Shown one piece after another: positions 1-29,601 of a stretch of DNA of 35,851 bases; the stretch's first letter is position 1; every line of letters starts with the position of its first letter. The translations under genes were made by a program, and so were the position numbers. The notes beneath the pieces are model-generated. The model ran no database searches, was not told where the DNA came from, and saw nothing but the letters and a program-made list of their open reading frames with translations. Origin of the DNA: Myxococcales bacterium (GTDB lineage: Bacteria; Myxococcota_A; Polyangia; Fen-1088); NCBI GenBank assembly GCA_025350815.1, contig JANXXE010000139.1:1-35851 (forward strand). Direction: 5' to 3'.

Positions 1-392
1 AGGCGCTGGCAGAAACCGTGGATGGTCGAAATCGGCGCGCCGTCGAACGCGAACAGGGCCGCCTGCAGCTTGCGCCGGGCGCGGTCATCGATGATCCAGC
101 AATCGTCATCGGGCGCATCCCGTGCGGCCTGGGCGCGCGGATCTTCGGGCCCAAGATCTTTGAGCTCTTGCAGCTTCTTGCGCACCCGGTGGATCAGGTC
201 AGCCGTTGCTTTCTCCGTAAAGGTCACCACCAGGATCTCTTCGAGGCGGGCGTCGTGCACGACAAGCAACTCGACCACCAGGTGCTCGAGCACATAGGTC
301 TTGCCTGTACCGGCCGAGGCCTCCACGACGGCGTGACGGCGGCCGAGGCGGGCGAGCTCGGGCGGCTTGCGGTAGCGAACGGTGGCCGTCAC
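1..392 (-). CDS. recB: RecB subunit of exonuclease V, N-terminal part (cut by window edge)
   Basis: This is the amino-terminal ~130 residues of the UvrD-type helicase/nuclease subunit RecB, which with RecC and RecD processes double-strand breaks for recombination. A Walker A motif, EASAGTGKT, lies near residues 24-32. It is followed by the Ia-like VTFTEKATADL segment and by STIHGFCQR at the window edge, the usual RecB order. The start is GTG at 392, preceded on the minus strand by GAGGAG (398-403). The GTG overlaps the recC stop as GTGA, so the two are probably translationally coupled. The rest of the gene, and probably recD, lies beyond base 1. The reading frame is clean, so the truncation is only the window boundary. 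The family call is firm; completeness cannot be judged. Confidence 0.93.
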   Translation of the reverse strand, partial: MTATVRYRKPPELARLGRRHAVVEASAGTGKTYVLEHLVVELLVVHDARLEEILVVTFTEKATADLIHRVRKKLQELKDLGPEDPRAQAARDAPDDDCWIIDDRARRKLQAALFAFDGAPISTIHGFCQR

Positions 393-3300
393 GGCGTCTC
401 CTCAGCGGCTGCGCTAAGCTCGAAGAACAAGCCGAAACGCCGACGGACCATGTCGGCCGCAACGTCGGGGCTGGGCGGGTCATGACGTTCCACCGCCTCG
501 GGCACAGGACCCAAGGCAGAGCTGATGGCAGTCGTCCTGGGAAACTGGAGGTGCTGATCCCGAAGCGACTCGATGCATTCGACGATCGATCTGACCCGGC
601 TTTTGCTGACCCGGCCCTTGCTGCCCCGGTGGGATTCGAACACCGCCTCGCAGGGCAACAGATACGGATGGACGCCAGTCGCGCGCCCACGGACGTCGAG
701 GGCGCCGGTGAACATGTCGCAAACAATGGCAGCCAGATACGCGCGCGCGCGATCGGCGCTGATGGGGCCGAACCCACCGTCTGCGTCCGCTGCCGAGTCC
801 TGCCCGTTTGACCACAGGGCGTATACCGATGAAGGGCCGTCTGCCAGACCGGCGGCCGCAAGGGCCAGATGATCGACGAAGGCCGCCAGCCAGCGCTTGG
901 AATCGCGCGAACCGCTTTCGACTTTGCGCCTGCACGACAGCAACAGCGTGCCCCGACAACCGCCGGGCTGGATCTGCAGGCCCGTCCGCCCGACCAGCGC
1001 GACCTGCGTCTGGCGCGGCGCCAGGCCATCCACCCCGGGCACCGTGGCGTCCAGCGTGACGGCATCACGGATGTCGGCGTTGTCCTCGTGCTCGGTCGCG
1101 CGACCGAAACGCACGATCTGGCCGCCACACGGTACACCGCCCCCGATCGCGCTGAGGTCGGCCCACCACCCGCGCAGGATCGCCTCGTGGACCCCGCGCT
1201 CGATCTGCCCGAACAGACCGGTCGGACCGCGACCGGCCAGCTCCTCGTGCAAGCACTCATCATGATAAGTCCGCGCCACCGATTCCCACGAGGGCACGCA
1301 CCCCGCCGTCAGGGCGCGAATCATCGACCGGCGCAGCAAAACGGTCGTCCCCCGTCGATCTGTCTCGAACGGTTCGTCCTGCCGATCCAGCAGATCTTCT
1401 TCGCCCTCGATTTCACGCAGTCGCAGGCGAAAACGCGCCGATCCTTGCAGGGGATCCTCCAAAAACTGGCGGATGTCTGCCAGGGACACCACCAGCCGCG
1501 GCAGCGCCTTGTCACCCCGATCGCCCCCCGCCGGCAGGGTGTGAATGCCCAGGCGCGCGGCCAGCGGCGTGAAGATCTCGGGGGGCAACGTCCGGCGCAA
1601 CGTCGGGATGTCCGGCAGCACAGCCCCCATCGGGACCGTGTCGCGCAAGGATTGTCCGAGGGCTTTCGCCGCCCATTCCCGTCGCCCGAGCGGCAGCGCA
1701 GCCAGGCGATCCTCGTCGTCGAAGCGGCGCAGGGGCCCAGCCGGATTCGCATCGAACAGCAGGCGGCTTTCCTCCGCTGACAGGTGGCCCTGCCGCAACA
1801 GCTCGCCGAGTTCCAGCAAGACGGACGATGGTTGTAGCGGCTCGCCAGTCAATTCGTCCCGCGCCACGTACGACAGCACCAGCCGCTCGCGCGCGCACAA
1901 CACAGTCTCCAGGAACATATAAAGATCCTGCTCGCGCGGCGTCACATCCCCGACGTGGCGCCGTCCCCCGCGCAGATCCAGCTGCGCCCGCCGCGTCGAC
2001 GACGGAAACTGACCTTGGCCCAGGCCCAGCGCAAACACCGCCCGAAATGGGATGGCACGCATGGGCACGAAGGCCGCAACCGTCACACCGTTGGCCAAAT
2101 ACTGGCCCCGCGCACCGCCCGCGGCCGCAAGGGCGCCTTGTACCAGCTCGGCGGCAATGCGGTAGGACACCGGCAAGGGGCCCAGCCCCACGTCTTCCAG
2201 GCCCTCGATTTCGCGCAGGCACTGGGCGACCAGGGTTTCCTCCGCCTCGTCCGCAGGGATCAGATAGCCGGTCAGCAGACCACGGATGAATTCCATCCAG
2301 TCAGCCAAAGGGCGCTGGCGTGGGCCCGTCACACCAGCGGCAAAGCGGGCGTCCTCGATTAGCGATCGCACCAATGTTGCGAAGGCCAGGGCGCTTGATT
2401 CGTCGTCCGGGATCTGGTCGGCGGGAAGATACGACTGACCCGCGAAATCAACGACCGACGAATCGCCGCTGCGCGGTCCGGCCATCAACGCGCCCAGCGC
2501 CAGGCGCCGCAACCCCTGATCCCAGTTCAGGATGTCGCGTTCGATGTATGTGTCACGGTGATCGCCGTGATCGGCGCCGTGAAGGATGCCCAGCTCGTCG
2601 CACAGCCGCACCCACTGCGTCGCGGTCGCCCCCGGAAATCGGGCCATCAGCGATGGATGGGTCAGCAACGGCAGCCATTCATGCCGCGAAAAGGATCCCA
2701 GCGGCAGCGCCAGCAACATCTGGAAGGCCTCGCCCAGTCGGTGCCCGCCGGCCTGGGGCAGGTCGATCACACTGTGGGGAAGGCCGTGGCTTTCGCCGAA
2801 GACCGCGCGCACATGCGACAGGTACGACGCCTTGGTCCCCTCGGGCACAATCACCGCAATGTCATTGAACCGCAGCGTGGGATCAGCGCGCATCATGGCC
2901 CAGATCTCCGCCGCAACGATTTCCAGTTCGCGACGCACGCCCGGACACGGAAGGACGGTGATGCTGCGATCGGCGCCCAGCGGCGGGACGGCCGGATCCC
3001 GATCCACGCGCGCCACACGTTCAAGAATGTCATCTTGCAGGCGCCCCAGCAGCGTCGGCGCAAAGTCCGCGGGCCCACGGTTGGCGACAAAGCGCCCCTC
3101 GAAATCGCCGTCGGTAAGCTGATTGAGCAGCCGGACGTTTTCGCGACCTGGTCGGCCCCACAGACGCAACGCCAGGTTCTCGTTGTCCCCGTCGAGGCCA
3201 AACGGATCGTCGCCCAGAGCCAGGTCCAGCTGTCGCGTCGCCGTGCCCCCGGCCGCGCGCGCGGTGCGCCGGCGTGCCTCGCCCCTGGTCTCGACGTCCT

Positions 3301-4078
3301 CCCAAAACTCGCGACAAGGATTGAGGGTGTAGATGCGGACGTCCATGTGCCGCGCCAGCGCCGCCAGCATGCGGTGGTACGCGCGCGCCACGTACGACAC
3401 GCCAAAGACGTGCAGCGTGGACCCGAGACCGCGAACCGCTAGCTGGCCGCGCGCCTCTGCCGTGGCGATGAGTTCGCCAAGCGGCAGCCACGACACGCCC
3501 TCGGCAGCCGACCGCCGCGCCAGCAAGGCGTCGCGCCCGAAGATCGCCAGCCATAACCGGCGTTGCCAGGTCCGGGTGGCGGTCTCGCCCGCCACGTCGG
3601 CCGTCCCGGCAGCTTGCCATTCCGCCAGCATCTGCGAGCGCGAATTGGCGTACTCGTCGAACAGCCGGGCAAGCTCGGCCGCCAGCTGGCAGCGCCGTCG
3701 ATCGATTGTGTCGGGCCTGGCCCCCGCCGCCATGAGATACGCCTGCACCGCACCCAGCCCCGGCGTCCGCAGAAGGGCATCGTCGTGCAACAGCGTCAGC
3801 AGGCAGCCGTGAATCTGGGCGACCTCGACCGCCCGCGCACCGGGCAAGGCGGACTCCGCCACCCGGGCCAGAAGTTTGCGCAAGAAGGTGACCTTCAGAT
3901 TGGCTGCAATGCCCGACGCCTGGGCCAGCCCCAGCTTGACGTAGGTCTCGACGTTGCGATTGGGCACCACCAGCGCGATGGGGACCAACGGGTGCGCCGC
4001 ACGTCGTTCCTCGTCGACCTGCTGCACCAGCGCCCGCAACAGCTCTTCTGTGCGGTTTGAGTAGCAGACGTGGATCAT
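389..4078 (-). CDS. recC: RecC subunit of exonuclease V
   Basis: A 1229-residue protein starting MIHVCYSNRTEELL, which resembles the RecC opening with its HSN-like motif. RecC holds the RecBCD complex together, carries an inactive helicase fold and, in enterobacteria, recognises Chi. It is somewhat longer than E. coli RecC (about 1120 residues). The frame stays open upstream to about 4309, but the ATG at 4078 gives the family-like N-terminus; the upstream extension is Arg/Pro-rich and reads antisense through the neighbouring kinase gene. The C-terminus (GLFGQIERGVHEAIL and following) fits the RecC nuclease-like region. The stop overlaps the GTG of recB by 4 bases. recC-recB order without ptrA between them is common outside enterobacteria. 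Whether it recognises a Chi-like sequence cannot be seen from here. Confidence 0.9.
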   Translation of the reverse strand: MIHVCYSNRTEELLRALVQQVDEERRAAHPLVPIALVVPNRNVETYVKLGLAQASGIAANLKVTFLRKLLARVAESALPGARAVEVAQIHGCLLTLLHDDALLRTPGLGAVQAYLMAAGARPDTIDRRRCQLAAELARLFDEYANSRSQMLAEWQAAGTADVAGETATRTWQRRLWLAIFGRDALLARRSAAEGVSWLPLGELIATAEARGQLAVRGLGSTLHVFGVSYVARAYHRMLAALARHMDVRIYTLNPCREFWEDVETRGEARRRTARAAGGTATRQLDLALGDDPFGLDGDNENLALRLWGRPGRENVRLLNQLTDGDFEGRFVANRGPADFAPTLLGRLQDDILERVARVDRDPAVPPLGADRSITVLPCPGVRRELEIVAAEIWAMMRADPTLRFNDIAVIVPEGTKASYLSHVRAVFGESHGLPHSVIDLPQAGGHRLGEAFQMLLALPLGSFSRHEWLPLLTHPSLMARFPGATATQWVRLCDELGILHGADHGDHRDTYIERDILNWDQGLRRLALGALMAGPRSGDSSVVDFAGQSYLPADQIPDDESSALAFATLVRSLIEDARFAAGVTGPRQRPLADWMEFIRGLLTGYLIPADEAEETLVAQCLREIEGLEDVGLGPLPVSYRIAAELVQGALAAAGGARGQYLANGVTVAAFVPMRAIPFRAVFALGLGQGQFPSSTRRAQLDLRGGRRHVGDVTPREQDLYMFLETVLCARERLVLSYVARDELTGEPLQPSSVLLELGELLRQGHLSAEESRLLFDANPAGPLRRFDDEDRLAALPLGRREWAAKALGQSLRDTVPMGAVLPDIPTLRRTLPPEIFTPLAARLGIHTLPAGGDRGDKALPRLVVSLADIRQFLEDPLQGSARFRLRLREIEGEEDLLDRQDEPFETDRRGTTVLLRRSMIRALTAGCVPSWESVARTYHDECLHEELAGRGPTGLFGQIERGVHEAILRGWWADLSAIGGGVPCGGQIVRFGRATEHEDNADIRDAVTLDATVPGVDGLAPRQTQVALVGRTGLQIQPGGCRGTLLLSCRRKVESGSRDSKRWLAAFVDHLALAAAGLADGPSSVYALWSNGQDSAADADGGFGPISADRARAYLAAIVCDMFTGALDVRGRATGVHPYLLPCEAVFESHRGSKGRVSKSRVRSIVECIESLRDQHLQFPRTTAISSALGPVPEAVERHDPPSPDVAADMVRRRFGLFFELSAAAEETP

Positions 4079-4172: not shown

Positions 4173-6449
4173 ATGACCATAGACGCGCCCGAAACCGACC
4201 GAGAACCTGTCCCCTTCGTGAAGGTCGGCGACCTGGCCGAGGGTTGGATGGGCCACGTCGAAATCGTCATGCAGCCCGACGGGCGGCGGGTCCGCCTGTT
4301 CGCCCGCAAACGACTTCACGCGCGATACCGCGTGGATCCGGCCTTCCGGGCGATGTTTTTGGAAGACGCGCGCGTGGCCCAATCGATACGGCACGACAAC
4401 GTGGTGCGGGTGTTCGAAAGCGGCGAGGACGCGGATGGACCCTTCCTGATCATGGAACTGGTCGACGGCATTCCCGTGGTGGACCTGGTCACCTGGGCAG
4501 AAGGCGACAGCCGCGGACTGCCACAACAGGTGGCCATCCGTATCGCCCGCACCGCCGCGCTTGGGTTGCAGGCTATACATGAACAGGTCGGACCGACAGG
4601 TGCGCCACTGGGTTTGCTTCACCGCAACGTTTCCGGGCAAAACATTCTGGTCGGTCACGACGGCACCGTCCGGTTGACCGACGTGGCCATCGCCCGGGCT
4701 CTCGGCGGCGATGCGGCGGCGGGCACGACCTTGGTCCGGGGCAACAAGGGCTATCTGTCGCCCGAGCAATTGCGCCTGCAGCCCCTCGACGTGCGCGCCG
4801 ATCTTTTCGGTCTGGGGGTGGCCCTGTGGGAAATGCTGGCGGGCGAGCGCCTGTATCCCAACCGCGAAGGAGCAGACGGCCCCCGCGGCATCCTGCACGA
4901 AGCGATTCCTGCCATCGCCGAGCTGCGCGAGAACGCCAACCCCGCGCTTGCCGATCTCCTGGCCAGCCTGGTGGCGCAGGACAGGGATCAGCGTCCCGGT
5001 ACCGCAGCGGAGATCGTCTCGCGTCTCGACGAGATCCTGACGCCGCTGATCACAAAGCAGGGGGCGATCGAAATCGAGCCCTTCATGAGTCGGGCTTTCC
5101 ACGCCGTCCACCGCGAACAGCAGGCCGAGCTGAACGCGCAACTGGAACAGCTGGGGGTCGAGCGCAGCTCGACGCAAACACCCAAGATTCGACTGGACGG
5201 CGGTCGGGGCCGCGTCGCCCGCGCGGCCGTGCGACGGCCGCCGACGAAGGTGGAACTGTGGTTGATGCGTGCTGCGATCGCGGCGGTCGCAGTGGCAGCG
5301 GGCTTCATGGTGTTTATGGGTGCGCACAGCAACGCCACGATCCCACCGCCCCCCGCACGGAAGGTCCCCGACCCCGGCCAGACCAGAACGGCGTGGGCGG
5401 GCGGCTGGCACTCGTGCGGCATCGAAGACAAGGTCCTTTATTGCTGGGGCAAGAACAGCCAGGGCCAGCTGGGCGTGGGCGGCACGGAAGACGAGTGGAC
5501 CCGCCGGCCCGTGGCAAGTCTGGTCGATCCCGCAAACGTGGCGACGGGGCTGCTGCACACCTGCGCATGCGCGCGCGATGGACAGGCGTACTGCTGGGGA
5601 CGCAACAACGAAGGACAATTGGGACTCGGCATGGCCGGCGTCGGCGATCGGCCCACACCGACGGCTGTGTCTGGATTGACCGATTGCGCGCAGCTTGCCG
5701 CGGGTCCCTCGCACACCTGCGCGCGGCGGTTCGACGGCACGGCGGCGTGCTGGGGTCTCAACGATCATGAACAGGTGGGACGGCCGGCTTCACCCGCCGT
5801 CCTTGTCCCCACGACGGTGACCGGACTGGTCGATGTCGCGCAGATTGCGACCGGCGGCGCGGCCGGTGGTGGGCAATTCACCTGCGCCCGCAGCAGCAAC
5901 GGCGCGGTCCTGTGCTGGGGCGACAACGGGCATGGCCAGTTGGGCGACGGAACAAAGGTGTCGCGCGCGCGCCCTGCCCCGGTCAAGGGCATCGACGACG
6001 CGGTCGAGCTGGCGCTGGGCGGACGATTCGCCTGCGCGCGACGACGATCCGGAAAGGTCGTCTGCTGGGGCGACAATTCAACCGGGGCGCTGGGCGACGG
6101 AACGCGCAGCGATCACACCACGCCGGTACAGATTGGTGGACTCAACGACATCGCACAACTGGCGGCGGGTCTTGGCCACGCCTGCGCGCTGTCGGCGAAG
6201 GGCGAGCTGCGCTGCTGGGGCGACAACCGGTCGGGGCAGATCGGCAACGGAACGCGCGAGGCGTCGCTGGCCCCCGTGCGCGTCGTCGACGTTGATCGAT
6301 TCATATTCGTGACCGCCGGTCTGTCACACACCTGCGGCCGCCACGCCACGGGTCTGGTTTGCTGGGGCGACGGAGAAAACGGGCAACTGGGAACCGGATC
6401 GGACAACACCCGGGTCCGGCCTGCCTCCGTTCCGGGATTTCATTACTAG
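4173..6449 (+). CDS. Membrane-anchored kinase-like protein with altered catalytic loop and seven RCC1-type repeats
   Basis: A 758-residue fusion. Residues ~17-290 form a Hanks-type kinase fold with a degenerate glycine loop (LAEGWMGHVEIV), a probable VAIK-type Lys46, alpha-C Glu near 64 and activation-end YLSPEQLRL (~194-202). The catalytic loop reads HRNVSGQN (150-157), so the catalytic Asp is Asn152, and DFG is replaced by DVA (170-172). It is therefore likely a pseudokinase or strongly impaired. One TM helix (~364-382) is followed by a Pro-rich linker and seven ~50-residue RCC1/BNR-like repeats (405-758) bearing CWG-x-N motifs. Every repeat also has a second Cys about ten residues before CWG, suggesting a disulfide per blade outside the inner membrane. 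I chose ATG 4173 over an in-frame ATG at 4077, which would extend into the recC start. It diverges from recC by 94 bases. Ligand and partners are unknown. Confidence 0.85.
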   Translation: MTIDAPETDREPVPFVKVGDLAEGWMGHVEIVMQPDGRRVRLFARKRLHARYRVDPAFRAMFLEDARVAQSIRHDNVVRVFESGEDADGPFLIMELVDGIPVVDLVTWAEGDSRGLPQQVAIRIARTAALGLQAIHEQVGPTGAPLGLLHRNVSGQNILVGHDGTVRLTDVAIARALGGDAAAGTTLVRGNKGYLSPEQLRLQPLDVRADLFGLGVALWEMLAGERLYPNREGADGPRGILHEAIPAIAELRENANPALADLLASLVAQDRDQRPGTAAEIVSRLDEILTPLITKQGAIEIEPFMSRAFHAVHREQQAELNAQLEQLGVERSSTQTPKIRLDGGRGRVARAAVRRPPTKVELWLMRAAIAAVAVAAGFMVFMGAHSNATIPPPPARKVPDPGQTRTAWAGGWHSCGIEDKVLYCWGKNSQGQLGVGGTEDEWTRRPVASLVDPANVATGLLHTCACARDGQAYCWGRNNEGQLGLGMAGVGDRPTPTAVSGLTDCAQLAAGPSHTCARRFDGTAACWGLNDHEQVGRPASPAVLVPTTVTGLVDVAQIATGGAAGGGQFTCARSSNGAVLCWGDNGHGQLGDGTKVSRARPAPVKGIDDAVELALGGRFACARRRSGKVVCWGDNSTGALGDGTRSDHTTPVQIGGLNDIAQLAAGLGHACALSAKGELRCWGDNRSGQIGNGTREASLAPVRVVDVDRFIFVTAGLSHTCGRHATGLVCWGDGENGQLGTGSDNTRVRPASVPGFHY
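5385..6446 (+). repeat. Seven tandem RCC1-like propeller repeats
   Basis: The Cys codons of the seven CWG motifs start at 5442, 5592, 5748, 5913, 6063, 6213 and 6360. The spacing is therefore 147-165 bases, about 50 residues. Each unit has the pattern H/F-x-C, 8-10 residues, then CWG-x-N/G followed by GQLG or similar. Seven units fit a closed seven-blade beta-propeller. The repeats are diverged at DNA level, so they are an old protein repeat rather than a recent DNA duplication. Confidence 0.88.
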
Positions 6450-6471
6450 ACCGCGCGGGACGAGAACGGGC

Positions 6472-8430
6472 TCAGAAATAACCCTGAATTTCCAGACGGC
6501 CCTCGCGGTGCTCGCCCGCTTGCTCGCCAATGATGCGCACTTGGGTCCGGCGCCCCAAATTCCACGCCTGGCCGACAAAAAACTCGGGGCGACGACGCCC
6601 GTCACCCAGGAAATAAAAAAGGTAAGCGCCGCTGGCCTGGACCTGCGCCACTGCACCCAGTTGCAGCACGGCGTTCACCGCGCCACCGATCCCGCCGCTG
6701 TAGCCGCCCCGGAAGGCCGAGCCGCCGGCCATCTCGCTGTCAACGGTGGCCATCAACAATCCCCGACGCACCGGGCGCCAGGCCAGGCCGCCCCCCGCGC
6801 GCGCGCCAGCCTCCAGGCACGACGCGTCCGCGCATCCCATCTGCCGCGCCTGGCCACCCCCGAAGCGGACTTTCCAGGATGACTTGACTGTCCACGAATC
6901 ATACGGCGCCGCCGACACGATGTTGATGAGGTCGATGCGTTCGGGCAGGACCCGGTGATTGTGGTCGTCGATGCGCAGGCGCAGATTGCCCATTTCCAAA
7001 ACGGCGTCGGACTGGTAGCCGCTGGGCGCGTCCAGGAAGTCGTGCAGGGCGAATCGGATCGCGATCTCCTCGAAGGCACCGGCCTGCCCGCGCGCAACGC
7101 CCGTGGCGACACCGGCACGAAACGAACGATGGCCAGACTCCGGGGGGCCGGTCGCCGGCTCGGCCCCGGTGGACTGCGGTGGAACGCCCGTGCGACCGCG
7201 CAGAATCAACAACTGGCGCTCCTTGTCCTTGAACGCGGCGCCGGGCTCGCCCTTCAGTCCTTCCCGGTAGCGCAACAGATCGTAGGCCGCGTCCAGGGTC
7301 AGGGCCTGCCGTTGGGGCACAAAGGGTGCCAGCAACGACGACGCCTCCCCGCCCCGCTTGACCAGCGTCTCGGCCGTCGCCACCTCTGCCCCCGTCATGC
7401 CGCGCTTGCGCGTCAGCATCTGGGCGCGCAACGACGGCCGTGTGCGTACGGTTTTGACCAGTCCGGGCACGGCCAGTATGGCCCGTACCGTATCCATCGG
7501 GATGACCGAGCCCGTGAACTGTTCGCTCAGGTGCAAGGAAGGCCGGGCGGCCTCCAGCAGGCCCAGCAGAAAGTAGGAACAGTTCTCGCTGAAGAAGAAA
7601 TAGTCGAAGTGCGTGCTGCGGGTTTCCCAGGCGTGCTGCACCATCCGCTCGGCCTGCTCGGCCGTCAGGGACAGTTCGTATTCCCACAGATCCCGACTTT
7701 CGATGTTCGAGTATTCCTGGATCTTCACGTAGGCAGGCATCATGTAGAAATAGCCACGAAAGCCGCCCAAAACGCCCTTGATCGCGTAGAGGATCCCGTT
7801 GTCCGTGTCGATGTCGGCGGCAAAGTTGATGATGTAGTCGAGCATGGGATTGCCCTGCGTCGTCGCGCGGGACAGACGGAAGAAGGTATGGCCGTACATC
7901 GACGCCGGGCTGTTCAGATACGCCGACGCGTACATCAACGTCACGCGCTCGGCCGACAAGGCCTGTCGCCAGGTCTCGAACAACGGACACGGCTGGCCGG
8001 GGATCTGCGCCGGATCAATCGCCAGCGCGGACTTGAGCCAGGCCCAGCGCGCGGGAAAGCGACACTGCGCATGCTGGGTGGCCTCGGGGCGGCGCGGATC
8101 CAGGGGCCTTGGCGCTTCCGCGAACGCCGCCAGCGTCGCGTCCAGTTCGGCCGCGGGATCGGTCTTTCCGTCGGGGCCCGCCAGGAAGAATCGTGGACCA
8201 TCGGCCTCGCTGCGCCACGTGCCCCGACTGGTTTTGCGGTAGTGCAACAAGACCTGCCACTGCCGGGAGACAGCCAGGCCCTGCCGATGCGCGGCGGCGC
8301 GCAGGCCGCGCAGGTAGTCCTTGCGGTGGCCGTCATCAGCCCGGGTGGGCGCCACCGACAGCGCCGTCAACAGGCCCACCAAAAGAAAGACCCGACGATC
8401 CACAGGGGCTCGCCGGGTCCGGGTACACAT
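6472..8430 (-). CDS. DUF4105 / Lnb N-terminal periplasmic domain protein
   Basis: A 652-residue exported protein with a signal peptide at about 12-31 (ending PTRA/DD). The central region (~120-310) matches the DUF4105 (Lnb N-terminal) family. It shows SPASMYGHTFFRL with His181 and FFSENCSYFLL with Cys284, which in this fold are the likely His/Cys catalytic pair of a permuted NlpC/P60-like (papain-like) domain. The Enterococcus Lnb enzyme with this domain moves an acyl chain to make lyso-form lipoproteins; whether this protein does so is not known. The last ~200 residues alternate as in beta-strands and end Gly-Tyr-Phe, like an outer-membrane barrel. The gene follows the DUF3015 gene after 10 bases and is probably co-transcribed. 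It ends 22 bases from the convergent kinase-like gene. The ATG at 8430 lacks a strong ribosome site, and a GTG at 8403 is an alternative. Confidence 0.85.
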   Translation of the reverse strand: MCTRTRRAPVDRRVFLLVGLLTALSVAPTRADDGHRKDYLRGLRAAAHRQGLAVSRQWQVLLHYRKTSRGTWRSEADGPRFFLAGPDGKTDPAAELDATLAAFAEAPRPLDPRRPEATQHAQCRFPARWAWLKSALAIDPAQIPGQPCPLFETWRQALSAERVTLMYASAYLNSPASMYGHTFFRLSRATTQGNPMLDYIINFAADIDTDNGILYAIKGVLGGFRGYFYMMPAYVKIQEYSNIESRDLWEYELSLTAEQAERMVQHAWETRSTHFDYFFFSENCSYFLLGLLEAARPSLHLSEQFTGSVIPMDTVRAILAVPGLVKTVRTRPSLRAQMLTRKRGMTGAEVATAETLVKRGGEASSLLAPFVPQRQALTLDAAYDLLRYREGLKGEPGAAFKDKERQLLILRGRTGVPPQSTGAEPATGPPESGHRSFRAGVATGVARGQAGAFEEIAIRFALHDFLDAPSGYQSDAVLEMGNLRLRIDDHNHRVLPERIDLINIVSAAPYDSWTVKSSWKVRFGGGQARQMGCADASCLEAGARAGGGLAWRPVRRGLLMATVDSEMAGGSAFRGGYSGGIGGAVNAVLQLGAVAQVQASGAYLFYFLGDGRRRPEFFVGQAWNLGRRTQVRIIGEQAGEHREGRLEIQGYF

Positions 8431-8440
8431 CGAAGGAAGA

Positions 8441-8980
8441 CTACTTCTTTGCGAGCTGCATCGGGCGACCTTCGGCGCGCGCGATCGCGCGCTCGTCGCT
8501 GCACCCGATGGCCAGGGCCGGCGTGGCCTTCATTTCGGTCTTCAGGGTCGACAGCATCTGCATCGGCGAGGTTGTCGACGAAGCGAAGATCACCTCGTAC
8601 TTGGTCTGGGTCATCTTGGCGAGGGTGGGCTTCGCCGATTCCTCGCAGCCGAGGAGCGTCCCGAACGACGACAGGAACTCGCCGCCGCCGGACGCCATGT
8701 TGCGCTTCAGATCCTGGAAGTTCACCTCGGCAAAGGCAGCCTGTTCACGCTGGGCCTTGACCACGCCACCCTGCACGCAGTTCGAGGTGCCCGAAGTGAT
8801 GCCGAATGTCTGGCTCCCGAATGTGCCGTTCGTTGTGGCTGCGAGGACCTGCATGACCATCGAGTTGTCCTTGCCAAACAGGATCGAACCCAGGCCACAG
8901 CCGGCCATGCCGTATTCGGCGCGCGCCGCGCCCGCGGACAGAAAGATCGCCATTCCCAACCCCAGCGTCAGTTTCTTCAT
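8441..8980 (-). CDS. DUF3015 family exported protein
   Basis: A 179-residue protein with a clear signal peptide (MKKLTLGLGMAIFLSAGAARA, cut after about 21). The mature start has GCGLGSILFG and the stretch AATTNGTFGSQTFGITSGT ending in Cys68, the hallmark of the DUF3015 family, whose function is unknown. Four cysteines in the mature part (28, 68, and in GCEES and IGCSD) could form two periplasmic disulfides. The start is ATG 8980, preceded by GGAGGAG seven bases upstream; the reading frame is open further upstream but without family signal. It lies 10 bases before the DUF4105 gene in what looks like a two-gene operon. The 125 bases upstream (8981-9105) hold no gene and presumably the promoter. 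Confidence 0.88.
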   Translation of the reverse strand: MKKLTLGLGMAIFLSAGAARAEYGMAGCGLGSILFGKDNSMVMQVLAATTNGTFGSQTFGITSGTSNCVQGGVVKAQREQAAFAEVNFQDLKRNMASGGGEFLSSFGTLLGCEESAKPTLAKMTQTKYEVIFASSTTSPMQMLSTLKTEMKATPALAIGCSDERAIARAEGRPMQLAKK

Positions 8981-9105
8981 GCCTGTCTCCTCCGTCGGAT
9001 CTGCACCGCCGCGCCCGGACGGTCCACTACGGACAGCCCCATGGAATCGCGGCGCCTCGACTGTAAAGGAGGTGGCGACAGCGGGCAAACTGTTTGCGTC
9101 GGCGT

Positions 9106-10014
9106 CTAGCGCAGGGCCAGCGACCAGCACGCGACGACGGCGAAGGCACTGAACGCCAGCAGGCCGACCTGCACCACCCAGGGCACCTGGCGGCGCACAG
9201 CCACGCCCGCCCCGCAGCCGAACACCAACCCCGCGCCCAGGCCCGTCAGGTGCGCCACGACGTCGGTGCGTGGCCCCACGCCCAGCATCGCGAACAGACC
9301 CAGACACGCCGCCAGCACCACGAACGCCCGTCGCAAACCGCCGCGCGGATCGGGCTGTCCGCGCAGTCGCCGCACGATCTGCAAACCGCCGAGAAGGCCC
9401 AGTGCCGCGAAGGTTGCCGTCGACGCCCCCACCGAATCGTGATGCGCGCCGTACAGGTACGCCGTCGCCAGATTGCCCGAGGTTCCCGCCGCGGCGACCA
9501 GCAGCAGGGCCAGACCATCACCCAACCAGCGACCAAGCGGACTGATGAAGATGATGGCCGCGGCCGCGTTGCCAAGAACGTGTGCGATGTCCGCGTGCAA
9601 CGTCAACGCGGTCACCGCGCGCCACCATTGCCCCCGCACGATGTGATCGGCCACGGCCGAGCCGGCGCGAAACCATCCGCCCGCGTCAGCCTCGCGGGGC
9701 CCCGTGACCGCGAAGAACGCCACCAGCGCGACAGCCGCCGCAACCCCGGCCAGCGACTGTCCATGGTCGGGGATCTGGCCCTCGCGCAGGGCGCGCTCGC
9801 TTTCCTCGCGGGCCTCGCGATCGTGGGCATTCAGCGTGGCGATCGCGCGCGCCGCCGCCGTCGGTTCGACCCAGACGCCCCAACCCGCCTGCCGCTCACC
9901 GGGCGGATCCACGCGGTGCTCGATGCCCAGCGCGTGCAACGCGAAGGTCCAGCTTTCGGCCACGCGCTCGTCGGGCGCGACCCGCACCAGAACCCAGTCG
10001 GCGATCTCGGTCAT
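9106..10014 (-). CDS. Rhomboid-family intramembrane serine protease
   Basis: A 302-residue membrane protein. Residues 1-80 are a soluble cytoplasmic domain. TM segments follow from about 87. The rhomboid signatures are complete: H140-x4-H145-x3-N149 (LHADIAHVLGN), Ser198 in GASTATF and His255 in VVAHLTGLGAG, so the Ser-His dyad is intact. Rhomboids cut membrane proteins within or beside their TM helices; the substrate here is unknown. The ATG at 10014 overlaps the stop of the upstream COG0523 GTPase gene (ATGA), so the two are translationally coupled. Stop is TAG. The C-terminal end has an additional hydrophobic helix (~277-300) after the catalytic His helix. Confidence 0.92.
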   Translation of the reverse strand: MTEIADWVLVRVAPDERVAESWTFALHALGIEHRVDPPGERQAGWGVWVEPTAAARAIATLNAHDREAREESERALREGQIPDHGQSLAGVAAAVALVAFFAVTGPREADAGGWFRAGSAVADHIVRGQWWRAVTALTLHADIAHVLGNAAAAIIFISPLGRWLGDGLALLLVAAAGTSGNLATAYLYGAHHDSVGASTATFAALGLLGGLQIVRRLRGQPDPRGGLRRAFVVLAACLGLFAMLGVGPRTDVVAHLTGLGAGLVFGCGAGVAVRRQVPWVVQVGLLAFSAFAVVACWSLALR

Positions 10015-10991
10015 GTGTCGGGCCCTGTCGCACGACACGCCCACAGCTGACGACGCAGGACGCCCGCATCCAGGCCCTCGCCGATGAACACCAGTTCGGT
10101 TCGCCGTGGTCCTGCCGGCCATGGTTCGAGAAACGCCAGACCCAGCTCCGTGCCCGCGCGTTCGAGAAAGCCCCGACGGCCTTCACCCGCGATGTGCACG
10201 AAACCTTTTGCCCGCACCAGCGCGGGGCCCAGGCGCCGGCACAGCGCAAGCAGCGGCTCGGCCAGCAAGGGCGCGTCGTCGACGAAACTGGCCGCCACCA
10301 GCTGGCCGTGGTGGTGCCCGGCGTCGACAGGGCGACGTACGCCCCCGGGTGCCCGGCCGTCGAGCAGCCACGGCACCAGTTCCCCCGTGCCCTCGGCCGT
10401 CGTCGGGAAGCTGGCGCGCTCGGCGTCGCGGTTCAGACCATCGAGCGCCCGGTGCAAGTCGCGCAGCCCGTCCGACGACACCAGATCCAGCTTGGAGACC
10501 AACAGGCGATCGGCGGCCACCACCTGCGCCCGCGCCTCGGCGTGGCGTTCGAACGTCGCCACCGCCGCCGCCGCATCCACCACCGTCACCACACCCGCCG
10601 GCGTGACCCTCACCTTTTCAGCGGCCCGCGTCGTCAGATCGGCAAGGCCTGCCAAGATGGGCGCGGGTTCCGCGATGCCGGTGGTTTCCAGCACGATGAT
10701 CTCGGGGCGAGAACGATCCAGCACCTCGTCAAGCGCGGACCACAGTTCTTCCTGCGTGCTGACCTGGTGACAAACACAGCCACCCACCAGTTCGACCACG
10801 TCGCCCGCCCGGGCCTTCAACAGCTTGCCATCGATGTCGATGCGACCGAGCTCGTTCACGATCACGGCCACCCGTCGGTGGTGCTGCGCCCCCAGCACAC
10901 GGTTGAGCACCGTCGTCTTGCCGGCCCCCAGAAAACCGGTCAGGAGAATCAGCGGCACACGACCGCCAGGCACGCCAAACACATCGGGCAT
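10011..10991 (-). CDS. COG0523 (CobW/YjiA-type) G3E GTPase
   Basis: A 326-residue GTPase of the metal-related G3E family. It has Walker A GFLGAGKTT (19-27), a switch segment VNELGRIDID (45-54), ETTG (102-105) in place of the usual ESTG, and the base-recognition SKLD (166-169). The family metal motif, usually GCxCC, reads GCVCH (71-75) here, with His in the third ligand position. A short His cluster (AGHHHG) lies between the GTPase and C-terminal domains. Such proteins serve as metallochaperones or insertases for Zn, Co or Ni; the metal is not predictable. I start at ATG 10991; an in-frame TTG at 11021 is less likely. It overlaps the downstream rhomboid gene by 4 bases and diverges from the PEGA gene across 62 bases. 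Confidence 0.9.
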   Translation of the reverse strand: MPDVFGVPGGRVPLILLTGFLGAGKTTVLNRVLGAQHHRRVAVIVNELGRIDIDGKLLKARAGDVVELVGGCVCHQVSTQEELWSALDEVLDRSRPEIIVLETTGIAEPAPILAGLADLTTRAAEKVRVTPAGVVTVVDAAAAVATFERHAEARAQVVAADRLLVSKLDLVSSDGLRDLHRALDGLNRDAERASFPTTAEGTGELVPWLLDGRAPGGVRRPVDAGHHHGQLVAASFVDDAPLLAEPLLALCRRLGPALVRAKGFVHIAGEGRRGFLERAGTELGLAFLEPWPAGPRRTELVFIGEGLDAGVLRRQLWACRATGPDT

Positions 10992-25505: not shown

Positions 25506-27221
25506 ATGGCGGATGCCGGCCCCACTGATAACGCGCCCGATCCAATTATCGGCAGGATCATCGGTAACAATTTCCGCGTCGTGCAGCTGATCGGCGCAGG
25601 CGCGATGGGCCGGGTTTACCAGGCCGAACAGCTGTCGCTGGGCAAGATGGTCGCGGTCAAGCTTCTGCACAGCGAGCTAATGGGCGACGAGATGCTGATC
25701 AAGCGTTTCGAGCTGGAGGCCAAGAACGCGTCGTCGCTGAATCACGTCAATTCGATCCAGATCATCGATTTCGGCCGCGACGGCAGCCTGCTGTACATCG
25801 CGATGGAACTGCTACCCGGCGTCGACCTGGCACAGCTACTGGAACGCGAGGGCGAGCTGCCGCTGGGCCGTATTGCGCGAATCATGGACCAGGTCCTGGC
25901 CGCCCTCGACGAGGCGCACGCCCAGGGGATCATCCACCGCGACCTGAAGCCTGGGAACATCATGCTGGTGTCACGCCGGGGCGAGCGCGACTTCGTCAAG
26001 GTGTGCGATTTCGGCATCGCGAAAGCGCAGACCCCGCGCGACGGGGAGATGCTGACCATGAAGGGTCTGGTGTGCGGCACGCCCGAATACATGAGCCCCG
26101 AACAGGCGCGCGGCGAGGTGGTCGACGGCCGCTCGGACCTGTACGCCGTGGCTTGCATCCTGTACCAGCTGGTCACCGGGCACGTTCCCTTCGGTGGGAC
26201 GGCGGCGGTAGAAGTACTGAGCAAGCACCTGGTGGAACCGCCGCCGGCCATCCTTGCGCGGCGACGGGACGGGGCCGTGCCGCCGGCACTGGACGCGCTG
26301 ATCATGCGGGGCCTTGCGAAGGAAAGGGGCGATCGCCCACAAACCGCCGCCGAATTTCGGCAAGAGCTGCGCGTCGCCCTACCCGGTTTGGTGGATCGGT
26401 GGAGCAATCATACTTTCGGGACGCCCGGGCCATCCGTCAGCGCGGCGACCTCGATAGGGCATCCGTCCAGCGGCGGGCCGACCGTGCCTGTGTCGTCGGG
26501 TGCCCCGACCATGATGCGACCGTCGACGCAGGTGACCGGCACGCCCGGTCGGAAGATCGGTCCCATTGTCATCGGCGTGGTGGGCCTCAGTGCTGTGGGG
26601 CTATTCGTTTTGCTGTGGGCGAACCGGGAGACACCGCTGCCGGCGACGGGCACGCCCACCGCCATCGCGCCGCCAACGGCCGCCGCCATCGCCCTTCCGG
26701 CGCCCGGGCCAGTCCCCCAACAGGCAGCCGCGCCCGCCCAGCCGCCCATCGCCGTGGCACCAATAGAAGAGCCAGCGCCGCAGCCCGCGCCACCAAAGAT
26801 GAAGGACGTCGCACACCACCTACGCCGGATGCCAGTCCCCGCCCCACCCGCCCGCACGGCAACCGTGCCCGCCGAAAAGCCGCGCGCCGTCGCTGAGCTT
26901 CCCCCGTCACCACCGACGCCCGTGGCTGCCATCGCGCCACCTCGCCCTGCGCCCGCGCCGACATCGCCTGCCGCCACCGACGGCAGTGATCTGCTGAAAG
27001 AAGCCTCCAAGCTGCTACGACAGGGCGAGTCCGCAGCCGCGTGCAAGAAGGGCGAGGAAGCCAAGCGCGCCAGTCCCGGCATCGCGGCCATCTACGAATT
27101 TCTGGGCAAGTGTTACAACCGCACCAGCGATCCACAGCGGGCCAACGAGAATAACCGCAGGTACCTGGAACTTGCGCCCGACGCACCCAACGCGGCCTTC
27201 ATCAGGAGCAGCCTAAAATGA
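25506..27221 (+). CDS. Ser/Thr protein kinase with TM helix and extracytoplasmic tail
   Basis: A 571-residue Hanks-type kinase with all key residues: glycine loop IGAGAMGRVYQA (29-40), Lys52 in VAVK, Glu near 71, HRDLKPGN (144-151, catalytic Asp146), DFG (168-170) and GTPEYMSPEQ (191-200). One TM helix (~352-371) follows a Thr/Ser-rich juxtamembrane linker that could hold autophosphorylation sites. The outer part is a long Pro/Ala-rich spacer (~375-490) and a C-terminal pair of helix hairpins resembling a TPR (~495-571). It is the first gene of a tight operon and overlaps the Cys-rich lipoprotein gene by 4 bases (ATGA). It looks like a PknB-type sensor, but the signal is unknown. Confidence 0.94.
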   Translation: MADAGPTDNAPDPIIGRIIGNNFRVVQLIGAGAMGRVYQAEQLSLGKMVAVKLLHSELMGDEMLIKRFELEAKNASSLNHVNSIQIIDFGRDGSLLYIAMELLPGVDLAQLLEREGELPLGRIARIMDQVLAALDEAHAQGIIHRDLKPGNIMLVSRRGERDFVKVCDFGIAKAQTPRDGEMLTMKGLVCGTPEYMSPEQARGEVVDGRSDLYAVACILYQLVTGHVPFGGTAAVEVLSKHLVEPPPAILARRRDGAVPPALDALIMRGLAKERGDRPQTAAEFRQELRVALPGLVDRWSNHTFGTPGPSVSAATSIGHPSSGGPTVPVSSGAPTMMRPSTQVTGTPGRKIGPIVIGVVGLSAVGLFVLLWANRETPLPATGTPTAIAPPTAAAIALPAPGPVPQQAAAPAQPPIAVAPIEEPAPQPAPPKMKDVAHHLRRMPVPAPPARTATVPAEKPRAVAELPPSPPTPVAAIAPPRPAPAPTSPAATDGSDLLKEASKLLRQGESAAACKKGEEAKRASPGIAAIYEFLGKCYNRTSDPQRANENNRRYLELAPDAPNAAFIRSSLK

Positions 27222-28609
27222 GTGAGCGGACGATCCGGACAGTGGTGGTCATGGTGTGGCTGGGCGGGATTTTCAGCGGCTGCAAAGTCGACAAAGACGC
27301 CTTTTACCAGAAGCTTTACAGCTGCAACCCGAACGCCGCCGACCCGGCCTGCGGCACCGACGCCGACGACAAGGCCATGGCTTGCGTCGCCGCGTACCAG
27401 TTGGGCGGCCGGAATTTCTGCGCGACGGGTTGCAACCGCAAGACCGCGCCGCCCGAGGGCGACACCGAAGGTATCTGCCTGGCTGCGGGCGATCCGAAGA
27501 ACGAGGTATCGGGGGCCAAGCTGAAGAAATGCCAGCCCGACACCGTCGGAAACGCCTGCGGTCAGGACGAACTGTCCTGCCTGCGCACGGATCTGATCAA
27601 GAACGAAGGCGTCTGCATGAACGTCACCCCCTGCCAGACCAGCGCCGACTGCCGCGATCCCGTGCGCGCGCAGTGCTTCGGCGAACTTCTGCGCAACAAC
27701 TACGGCCCGCAGGCGGGTCTGAAATCCGACCACACCTATTGTGTGCAGCTGGGCTGTCGGGCCACCGGCGCGGCCTGTTCGCCGGGCGAAACCTGTTTGC
27801 GCAACCGCCTGGGCCCCGAATCCAGCCCGCCCGATATCTGCGTGCCCAATTGCGATTCCAACCGCAACTGCCCGCCCAATTATTTTTGCTATCCGGATCT
27901 CTACAGCAAGAGCTCACCCGCCATTTGCCTGCCGGGATTGCTGGGCCTGCGTTGCCGGACGCGCATGGATTGTCTGGTCGGCGACTGCGTCGACACGGGC
28001 GCCGGCTTCAACGTCTGCACGGTTCCCTGCGCCGACAACGACGACTGCGCCAAGTTCGACAGCGAGCACGGCACCTTCTTCTGCAACGACAAGAAAGTGT
28101 GCGCCGGCGTGCGCGCCTTCCGTGGGTCGACCTGCCGCACGACCGGCGACTGCCGCACGGGCGAAATTTGCAGCATCCCCTTTTTCGCGCCCGCCACGCA
28201 GACCACCGGGCAGTGTTTGTTCGCCTGCGGCGACAACCGAACCTGTCCCGCCTACGGCGGTGTGGCGCACACCTGTCTGAGCCAGCGAGACACCGCCGAG
28301 CCTCCGATCTGCTGGCCGGGACACATCGGCATTCCCTGCCAGACCGACGACAACTGCGCCTGGGGCCTGAAGTGCCGGCCCACTGGCCCGCCGCCACGGC
28401 CCAGCATCTGTAGCGCCATCTGCTTGACGGACGAGGATTGCGTCGCCAACCGTGCCACGCGCGACTTCCTGAATCGCGATGGTTGGTGCGCGGCCGGACT
28501 CAATTTGTGCCAGGCGCCGCAGAAGGAAGGCAAGGCCTGCGATCGCGCCAATCAGTGCGAATCGCGGCAATGCGTGAACAACCTTTGTCAGCCCCTGCCG
28601 CCCTTTTAG
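27218..28609 (+). CDS. Very cysteine-rich putative lipoprotein
   Basis: A 463-residue protein with a hydrophobic signal (VVVMVWLGGIFSGC) whose Cys22 is the likely lipidation site; the lipobox is imperfect. The mature protein holds about 50 cysteines (over 10%) in repeated C-x(n)-D-C and C-x(3-6)-C units, such as TDEDC, TTGDC, TRMDC and TSADC. It is therefore probably a rod or knot held by many disulfides, or a metal-rich surface protein. Similar Cys-rich lipoproteins are common in myxobacteria without known function. The ATG sits in the ATGA overlap with the kinase gene, so the two are translationally coupled. It may be a kinase partner or ligand at the cell surface; this is inference from position. 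Confidence 0.82.
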   Translation: MSERTIRTVVVMVWLGGIFSGCKVDKDAFYQKLYSCNPNAADPACGTDADDKAMACVAAYQLGGRNFCATGCNRKTAPPEGDTEGICLAAGDPKNEVSGAKLKKCQPDTVGNACGQDELSCLRTDLIKNEGVCMNVTPCQTSADCRDPVRAQCFGELLRNNYGPQAGLKSDHTYCVQLGCRATGAACSPGETCLRNRLGPESSPPDICVPNCDSNRNCPPNYFCYPDLYSKSSPAICLPGLLGLRCRTRMDCLVGDCVDTGAGFNVCTVPCADNDDCAKFDSEHGTFFCNDKKVCAGVRAFRGSTCRTTGDCRTGEICSIPFFAPATQTTGQCLFACGDNRTCPAYGGVAHTCLSQRDTAEPPICWPGHIGIPCQTDDNCAWGLKCRPTGPPPRPSICSAICLTDEDCVANRATRDFLNRDGWCAAGLNLCQAPQKEGKACDRANQCESRQCVNNLCQPLPPF

Positions 28610-28623
28610 CCATGAGGCCCACC

Positions 28624-29601
28624 ATGATTCGTTCATTTGTCACGCTGACGGTTGTTGCCCTGCTGTGTTCGTCCGCCCTGCCCGCACAGGCCCGCATTGC
28701 CGAAAAAATGGCTGTCTTGGTTTTGGGTTCCGCCGAACGCGACGCCGAGCTTGCCGACAACGTCACCGAGATGATCATCTCGGCGGTGGCGCGGCGGGGC
28801 GGCTTCGAGATCGCCGGCAAGGAAGAATTCCGCGCGCGCCTGGGCGTCGAGAACGAGCAGCGCGCGCAAGCCTGCCTGGACGACGTCCCGTGCGTGGGCC
28901 GCGCCGCCGTGGCGCTGGGCGTTCGGCAAATCGTCAGCGGCACCGTCGGCACCAAGGGCACCAAGCAGTTCCTGTTCAGCCTGAATCTGCAAAACGTCGA
29001 AAGCGGCCGCGTCGACAACCGCGTGTTTCGGCTGATCGAGGGGACTCTCGACGATCTGATCAAGGCCGTCGATGCGGGCACCGAAGAGCTATTCAAACCC
29101 AAGATCGAGCCGGGTCGAATCCAGGTCGGGTCCGAGCCCGACGGCGCGCGTGTCTCGATCGACAATGCGTATCTGGGCGTGACGCCGCTGATTTCGGGGA
29201 CCCTGCTGCCCGGCAATCACCGGGTGCGGGTCGAATCCGAGGGTCGTTTCCCGTGGCTGTCCACTGTTGACGTGCGGTCCGGGCAAGATCTGGGGATCAA
29301 GCTGACCGAGGCGAACCTACCGCGGCGTAGAAAGTGGCCGACGCGTCTGGCGTACACCACGGGCGCCCTGGGGTTGTCGTCGTTTGCGACGGCGGGTTTT
29401 CTGGGCGTCCTGTCGCAGATCAACCCGACCGGCGACACGCGCGCCGACGCCAAAAACGACTTGTCGCAGAAGGAACGCCTGGCCCGGGGCGCGAACATCG
29501 CCATCATCACGGGCGGCGCCCTGGCCGTCATCTCCGTGTTGACGTTCCTCATCTACAAGGACGACGTCGTCGGCCGCGACGAGTCGGCCTACGAACGCTG
29601 A
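28624..29601 (+). CDS. PEGA-domain membrane protein (copy 2)
   Basis: A 325-residue protein with a signal peptide (MIRSFVTLTVVALLCSSALPAQA, ~23), a TolB/CsgG-like region (~28-155) with a Cys pair at 84 and 90, one PEGA domain (~163-228, VGSEPDGARVSIDNAYLGVTP) and two hydrophobic segments (~244-265 and 290-311). The layout is the same as the protein at 11054, including the Cys pair before an L/A-x-V-x(2-3)-IVSG/LVSG turn, so they are paralogs. ATG 28624 has GAGG six bases upstream and is preferred to ATG 28612. It lies between the Cys-rich lipoprotein and the phosphatase genes in one operon. Confidence 0.85.
   Translation: MIRSFVTLTVVALLCSSALPAQARIAEKMAVLVLGSAERDAELADNVTEMIISAVARRGGFEIAGKEEFRARLGVENEQRAQACLDDVPCVGRAAVALGVRQIVSGTVGTKGTKQFLFSLNLQNVESGRVDNRVFRLIEGTLDDLIKAVDAGTEELFKPKIEPGRIQVGSEPDGARVSIDNAYLGVTPLISGTLLPGNHRVRVESEGRFPWLSTVDVRSGQDLGIKLTEANLPRRRKWPTRLAYTTGALGLSSFATAGFLGVLSQINPTGDTRADAKNDLSQKERLARGANIAIITGGALAVISVLTFLIYKDDVVGRDESAYER

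Follow-up and report, generated by a model that had tools for sequence, protein, structure and literature searches.

The reading frame at positions 4173-6449 (+) of the window, by which is meant the whole 35,851-nucleotide stretch of Myxococcales DNA that was analyzed, raises the question of what a protein kinase fold does once its catalytic residues have been replaced and it has been joined, through a single membrane helix, to an RCC1 propeller. The answer developed here draws upon sequence comparison and structural modeling, which provide the topology of the protein, the loss of its catalytic residues, the retention of its fold, its chimeric origin and the absence of its expected partner.

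Architecture and cysteine pairs of the chimera

The frame is open throughout its 758 codons, and Pfam matches together with an AlphaFold2 model of the 758-amino-acid product (mean pLDDT 85) identify a kinase-TM-RCC1 chimera composed, in this order, of a protein-kinase fold, one transmembrane (TM) helix and a seven-blade RCC1 propeller. Specifically, residues 15-290 (4215..5042, +) match PF00069 at E=6e-27, the score of 95 bits against a cutoff of 31.7 placing the protein within the protein kinase superfamily, and the corresponding part of the model matches PknB with a TM-score of 0.88 (normalised to the target), pLDDT values lying mostly between 87 and 98 except in the activation loop and the termini. 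The fold is followed by a juxtamembrane helix in the model (residues 301-326; 5073..5150, +) that is common to the active kinases of sister genera, and similarity to the kinase encoded at locus L011 reaches residue 334, past the kinase domain. The single strong hydrophobic stretch of the protein, residues 362-381 (5256..5315, +; hydropathy maximum 2.05), is preceded by an Arg/Lys-rich juxtamembrane segment, with RRPPTK just before the helix, and the N-terminus is therefore predicted to lie inside and the propeller outside. Beyond the helix, residues 405-758 (5385..6446, +) contain seven PF00415 stretches (E=9e-55; also PF25390) and match UVR8 in the model with a TM-score of 0.89 (normalised to the target), which places the protein in the RCC1-like superfamily, defined by seven repeats and a closed seven-blade propeller. 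These results bear out the membrane helix and seven-blade propeller proposed in a preliminary description of the locus, including the closure of the propeller, for which structure prediction had been suggested as a check. The coding signature persists in the kinase half, where GC content by codon position is 0.75/0.44/0.78, and a scan for sigma-70 promoters upstream of the gene returned no match.

All 16 cysteines of the protein lie after the TM helix, none being N-terminal to residue 415, and every blade carries C-x8-9-CWG. The within-blade pairs (415/424, 464/474, 516/526, 571/581, 621/631, 671/681 and 721/730) and an additional pair, C466/C505, fall within 5415..6362 (+), and DSSP analysis of the model places both cysteines of each blade facing across consecutive antiparallel strands, within one residue of register. 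The preliminary description was thus correct in assigning a Cys pair to each blade, but the potential pairs number eight rather than seven, the extra pair C466/C505 being conserved in the two nearest propeller relatives. Its placement of the propeller in an oxidising location is likewise supported. Analysis of related bacterial RCC1 repeats reveals both cysteines in 124/128, indicating that C-x9-CWG is normal for the family and not special to this protein. With so few losses, covariation of cysteine presence was set aside as a means of recognizing disulfides (Fisher p=0.05). In the sister protein L012 both blade-1 cysteines have been lost together, a pattern that favors real disulfides.

Catalytic residues of the kinase half and its active relatives

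Pseudokinases are recognized by the absence of the beta3 Lys, the HRD Asp and/or the DFG Asp (PMC12599244), and the kinase half of the present protein carries Asn152 in place of the HRD Asp. In the alignment, the catalytic loop HRNVSGQN (residues 150-157; 4620..4643, +) displays D152N and P155G with N157 kept, and DFG is replaced by DVA (residues 170-172; 4680..4688, +) with Asp170 kept. The Gly-rich loop (AEGWMGHV, residues 22-29; 4236..4259, +) contains G25W at a position where Gly is invariant in 18 relatives, and the alpha-C Glu, invariant in the same 18, is Asp65 (E65D; 4365..4367, +). Along with N157 and D170, the beta3 Lys46 (4308..4310, +), SPE 196-198, D210 and R274 are kept. Alignment and the PknB match therefore confirm the HRN and DVA motifs, and the retention of the Lys, the metal Asp and the C-lobe, as given in the preliminary description; E65D, G25W and P155G had been missed.

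In a leave-one-out test, the kinase breaks 9 of the 48 columns invariant in 18 relatives and keeps the other 39, each of the relatives breaking between 0 and 3, and seven of the nine broken columns lie around the active site (G25W, E65D, D152N, P155G, F171V, G172A and K189R). Judged from sequence and model, the domain is predicted to be a pseudokinase that keeps its fold intact, and the retained K46, N157 and D170 may still allow some nucleotide binding or weak activity. Sequencing error was ruled out as the source of HRN and DVA, given that the changes affect several distinct codons (GAC to AAC, and GTG GCC for the Phe-Gly codons of DFG) and that further catalytic-site columns are changed as well. 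Within the same genome the HRD Asp is missing in about six of ~58 kinase domains, and the pseudokinase state by itself is thus not rare there; further predicted pseudokinase domains, with HGG, HGA, NFA and similar motifs, are found at L113 (G000:C210), L116 (C200), L130 (C154), L151 (C65), L145 (C11) and L105 (C148).

The nearest relatives of the kinase, at 40-50% identity, all carry HRD and DFG. HRD, DFG and the alpha-C Glu are furthermore kept in 36/36 other clade kinases, these being the members readable in two wider genome samples, and catalytic loss is therefore confined to a single lineage. The preliminary description had implied a conserved type of pseudokinase receptor and had proposed residues 152 and 170-172 of the orthologs as a check; the orthologs carry HRD and DFG at these residues, and a conserved pseudokinase family was rejected. 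In a maximum-likelihood tree, the kinase joins three sister-genus kinases with support 99/94, its membership of the clade being backed by 99/94 and 97/96, and HRD and DFG are intact in all three. No same-genus or close sequence with which selection on the kinase half could be gauged was found in sequence collections.

Three active clade kinases (G003:C374, G007:C473 and G011:C215) are 45-49% identical to the present protein over the kinase and have the juxtamembrane region and TM helix in common with it. Unlike it, they possess intact HRD and DFG and no propeller; where complete, they end in a short conserved extracytoplasmic tail, and their genomes encode the regulator described below. The C-termini of many active clade kinases (L014, L015, L237, L238, L240, L011, L019 and L294) comprise a low-complexity extracytoplasmic linker and then a short aromatic tail, examples of which are TPMWEW, IPMWEWE, MPMWESY, VPVWEDY, VPLFEQWQ and PVFRRFD. 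Where these kinases bear the aromatic tail, the present protein bears its propeller.

The partner regulator and the free RCC1 relatives

The usual divergent neighbor of the active clade kinases is a previously undescribed gene of ~500-640 codons for a TPR/winged-helix regulator, represented in G003 by the copy P0003 (L265:8225-10057, +), which adjoins the kinase gene at L265:6701-8287 (-). This regulator gene adjoins most clade kinases with sufficient flank and none of the more distant kinases, and members of the family are also seen at L267, L268, L055, L054, L019, L057, L014 and L021. No full-length Pfam match to the regulator was obtained, and the C-terminus gives weak winged-helix matches; its model (pLDDT 83) has a domain of alpha-helical repeats and, after it, two parts that resemble winged helices, and the fold weakly matches those of Rap, NprR and MalT. 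An EDTTFxEPT-like tail closes nearly every complete copy and, to judge from its sequence, could plausibly act as a phospho-acceptor.

Of 144 genomes sampled, 13 carry the clade kinase and 12 the regulator (Fisher p about 1e-16, without correction for phylogeny), and across 318 genomes of the class the corresponding numbers are 32 and 31. In both samples kinase and regulator occur in the same genomes, the one exception being the genome that encodes the present protein, the sole case among the 318 of a clade kinase with no regulator. Such matching genome sets argue strongly for a joint function of the two. The genome is a draft (97.7% complete, 226 contigs), and the regulator is likely to be truly absent from it. 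Its kinase thus belongs to the clade by placement but has neither the regulator nor the intact catalytic residues of the pair, and recC (RecC, exonuclease V gamma; 389..4078, -; PF04257, E=4e-54) fills the divergent slot where active relatives usually carry the regulator gene. Catalytic loss in this lineage coincides both with the missing regulator and with propeller gain, and the finding that the sole orphan is also the sole dead clade kinase suggests that the loss of catalysis and the loss of the partner went together, in either order.

The closest relatives of the propeller are free exported proteins of sister genera with neither kinase nor TM helix, namely G007:C156 (50% identity over the propeller), G008:C478 (47%) and G008:C321 (43%), the two nearest of which have the CxC...DC extra pair and the pre-blade-1 linker in common with the present protein. 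Both L012, a G008 protein, and L157 have a lipobox-like N-terminus as well as an extra domain in the N-terminal part, and at least one free RCC1 relative is predicted to be a lipoprotein. The genome of the chimera encodes one other RCC1 protein (C112), its next closest kinase is just 33% identical, and no free copy of either the kinase half or the propeller half was found in it; the chimera thus stands in place of two genes. No second kinase-RCC1 fusion was found in 77 RCC1 loci, in the other loci read, or among matches spanning both halves, the search with the 758-residue fusion having scored the best seven candidates per genome.

RCC1-rich myxobacterial genomes are known (PMC3035250). Among 18 genomes of the family, a close RCC1 protein occurs in 3, all of which have a clade kinase (present in 5/18; p=0.012, uncorrected). 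Across the class, 13 RCC1 genes lie <=1.5 kb from a Ser/Thr kinase gene, against ~4-5 expected from flank density (p between 3e-4 and 2e-3), an excess that is suggestive only, since the query behind the first 40 loci also contained the kinase half; with RCC1 alone as query, the ranked loci were largely the same. A conserved gene pair of the family places an HRD/DFG membrane kinase directly upstream, on the same strand, of a secreted multi-blade RCC1 protein (L189, L235 and C112, the last being G000:C112 at L129:2394-5141 and 5586-7121). The kinases of these pairs end in GAWDPDSPVPP or LGAWDPDSPVPP (L189 and L235) and in WDPDSVLLP (C112).

Known systems and competing explanations

The preliminary description knew of no characterized bacterial protein with this layout. 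No literature on bacterial kinase-RCC1 fusions was found, but the general order has a precedent: PknD of M. tuberculosis similarly consists of an N-terminal cytoplasmic kinase, a single TM helix and a C-terminal extracytoplasmic beta-propeller (PMC6213207). PknD differs in possessing an active kinase and six blades, the present protein having HRN and DVA and seven RCC1 blades with one Cys pair each; of the PknD-type features, only the kinase-TM-propeller order is therefore found. The PknD propeller is of the NHL type.

Plant CRINKLY4/CCR receptors (ACR4, CCR1 and CCR2) combine an RCC1-like propeller of seven repeats outside the cell, carrying C(X10)CWG and predicted within-repeat disulfides, with a TM helix and a cytoplasmic kinase, and the kinases of CCR1 and CCR2 are nearly inactive (PMC4617170). 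ACR4 is among the sequence matches of the present propeller, and the two systems resemble one another in their seven-repeat RCC1-like Cys-paired propeller, TM helix and sometimes inactive kinase. An analogue of C(X10)CWG occurs in all seven blades, yet with 8-9 residues between the cysteines. In contrast, the CRINKLY4/CCR ectodomain is N-terminal, with a signal peptide and a TNFR-like Cys-rich domain, and the kinase is of a different family; the type I topology of these receptors is opposite to that of the present protein, in which the kinase is N-terminal and the propeller C-terminal. The resemblance is likelier to reflect convergent assembly. Among bacteria, the MviN pseudokinase (ActPs3) and ActPs2 are membrane-linked, and ActPs2 of Actinobacteria displays Asn for the HRD Asp, a C-terminal TM region, a beta3 Lys to Arg change, a DFG deletion and long insertions (PMC12599244). 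Of the ActPs2 sequence features, the present kinase has just the Asp to Asn change, K46 and D170 being present and insertions absent. The same source covers seven families of bacterial pseudokinases and names RCC1 or propeller domains for none of them (PMC12599244).

On balance, the sequence evidence inclines us to regard the protein as a lineage-specific chimeric receptor pseudokinase, serving as a non-catalytic receptor or scaffold. Sequence comparison places its kinase half among active single-pass membrane Ser/Thr kinases, in a clade whose other members are always accompanied by the TPR/winged-helix regulator. In this lineage the regulator is absent, the catalytic residues have been replaced with most structural residues kept, and the short extracytoplasmic tail has given way to a seven-blade, disulfide-braced RCC1 propeller, a module present in sister genera as a free exported protein. 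The propeller would bind a ligand or partner in the envelope or outside the cell, and the kinase fold, presumably no longer phosphorylating, would relay this through binding, serving the cell's other membrane Ser/Thr kinases as a scaffold or allosteric partner; a ligand may thereby set the state of the non-catalytic domain, as the preliminary description proposed. HER3 provides a precedent, as do CCR1 and CCR2 with ACR4 (PMC4617170), and by analogy relay may proceed in the manner of HER3 or of CCR1/CCR2-ACR4 pairs.

The main rival, which we consider the less likely of the two but by no decisive margin, is decay of a kinase left without a substrate, the kinase half now providing just cytoplasmic mass and a membrane anchor for the propeller without signaling. 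Its end branch in the tree, at 1.32 versus 0.16-0.46, is three to eight times those of the sister kinases, a length that fits relaxed constraint equally well, and the nine broken family-invariant columns and the absent regulator are also as decay would have them. However, the frame is intact across the whole kinase domain, the 39 columns kept and the clustering of the broken ones at the active site rather than the core speak against decay, and the fold is modeled with high pLDDT outside the activation loop and termini. It is decidedly improbable that the domain remains an active, atypical kinase using Asn152 or another residue: although K46, N157, D170, D210 and R274 are retained, D152N, E65D, F171V, G172A and G25W each alter a residue otherwise invariant in the clade, and a missing HRD Asp is accepted as marking a pseudokinase (PMC12599244).

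Far less credible still is the conserved bacterial receptor family implied by the preliminary description. The pseudokinase and RCC1 features it noted are real in this protein, but 0/36 clade kinases are degenerate and the loci and spanning matches searched hold no second fusion. We give equally little credence to misassembly of two separate genes in a draft contig; the fragmentation of the assembly and the existence of both halves as separate genes in relatives would permit it, but the two halves meet in frame and precisely behind a TM helix whose flank is positive-inside, and the assembly holds no second copy of either half.

Returning to the chimeric receptor, its history may be tentatively proposed as that of an obligate-pair kinase that lost its regulator, was freed from catalysis and became a non-catalytic receptor by fusion to a secreted RCC1 propeller. 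If this is true, a Rosetta-stone argument would make the free RCC1 protein of sister genera the extracellular input to a kinase-regulator pair that is still active. Most bacterial pseudokinases have no known function, and here the loss can be framed against active, regulator-paired relatives; with the regulator lacking solely where the kinase is dead, the genome offers a testable natural experiment on whether binding can maintain a kinase fold that has lost its substrate. The data also point to a newly described, genome-linked pair of kinase and transcription regulator, and to a role of RCC1 propellers as sensors for membrane kinases.

Within the window, no co-encoded partner, ligand or effector is visible beside the gene, which is flanked by the divergent recC upstream and a convergent Lnb_N gene downstream, and the recC, Lnb_N, DUF3015, rhomboid and PEGA neighbors were not found at the relatives' kinase loci examined for synteny. 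The convergent downstream segment (6472-10122, -) holds an Lnb_N/DUF7840-43 gene, a DUF3015 gene and a rhomboid protease gene. Further along, 25506-29601 contains a second kinase gene with HRD and DFG intact; an unassigned gene and then a PEGA-domain gene come after it in the same orientation.
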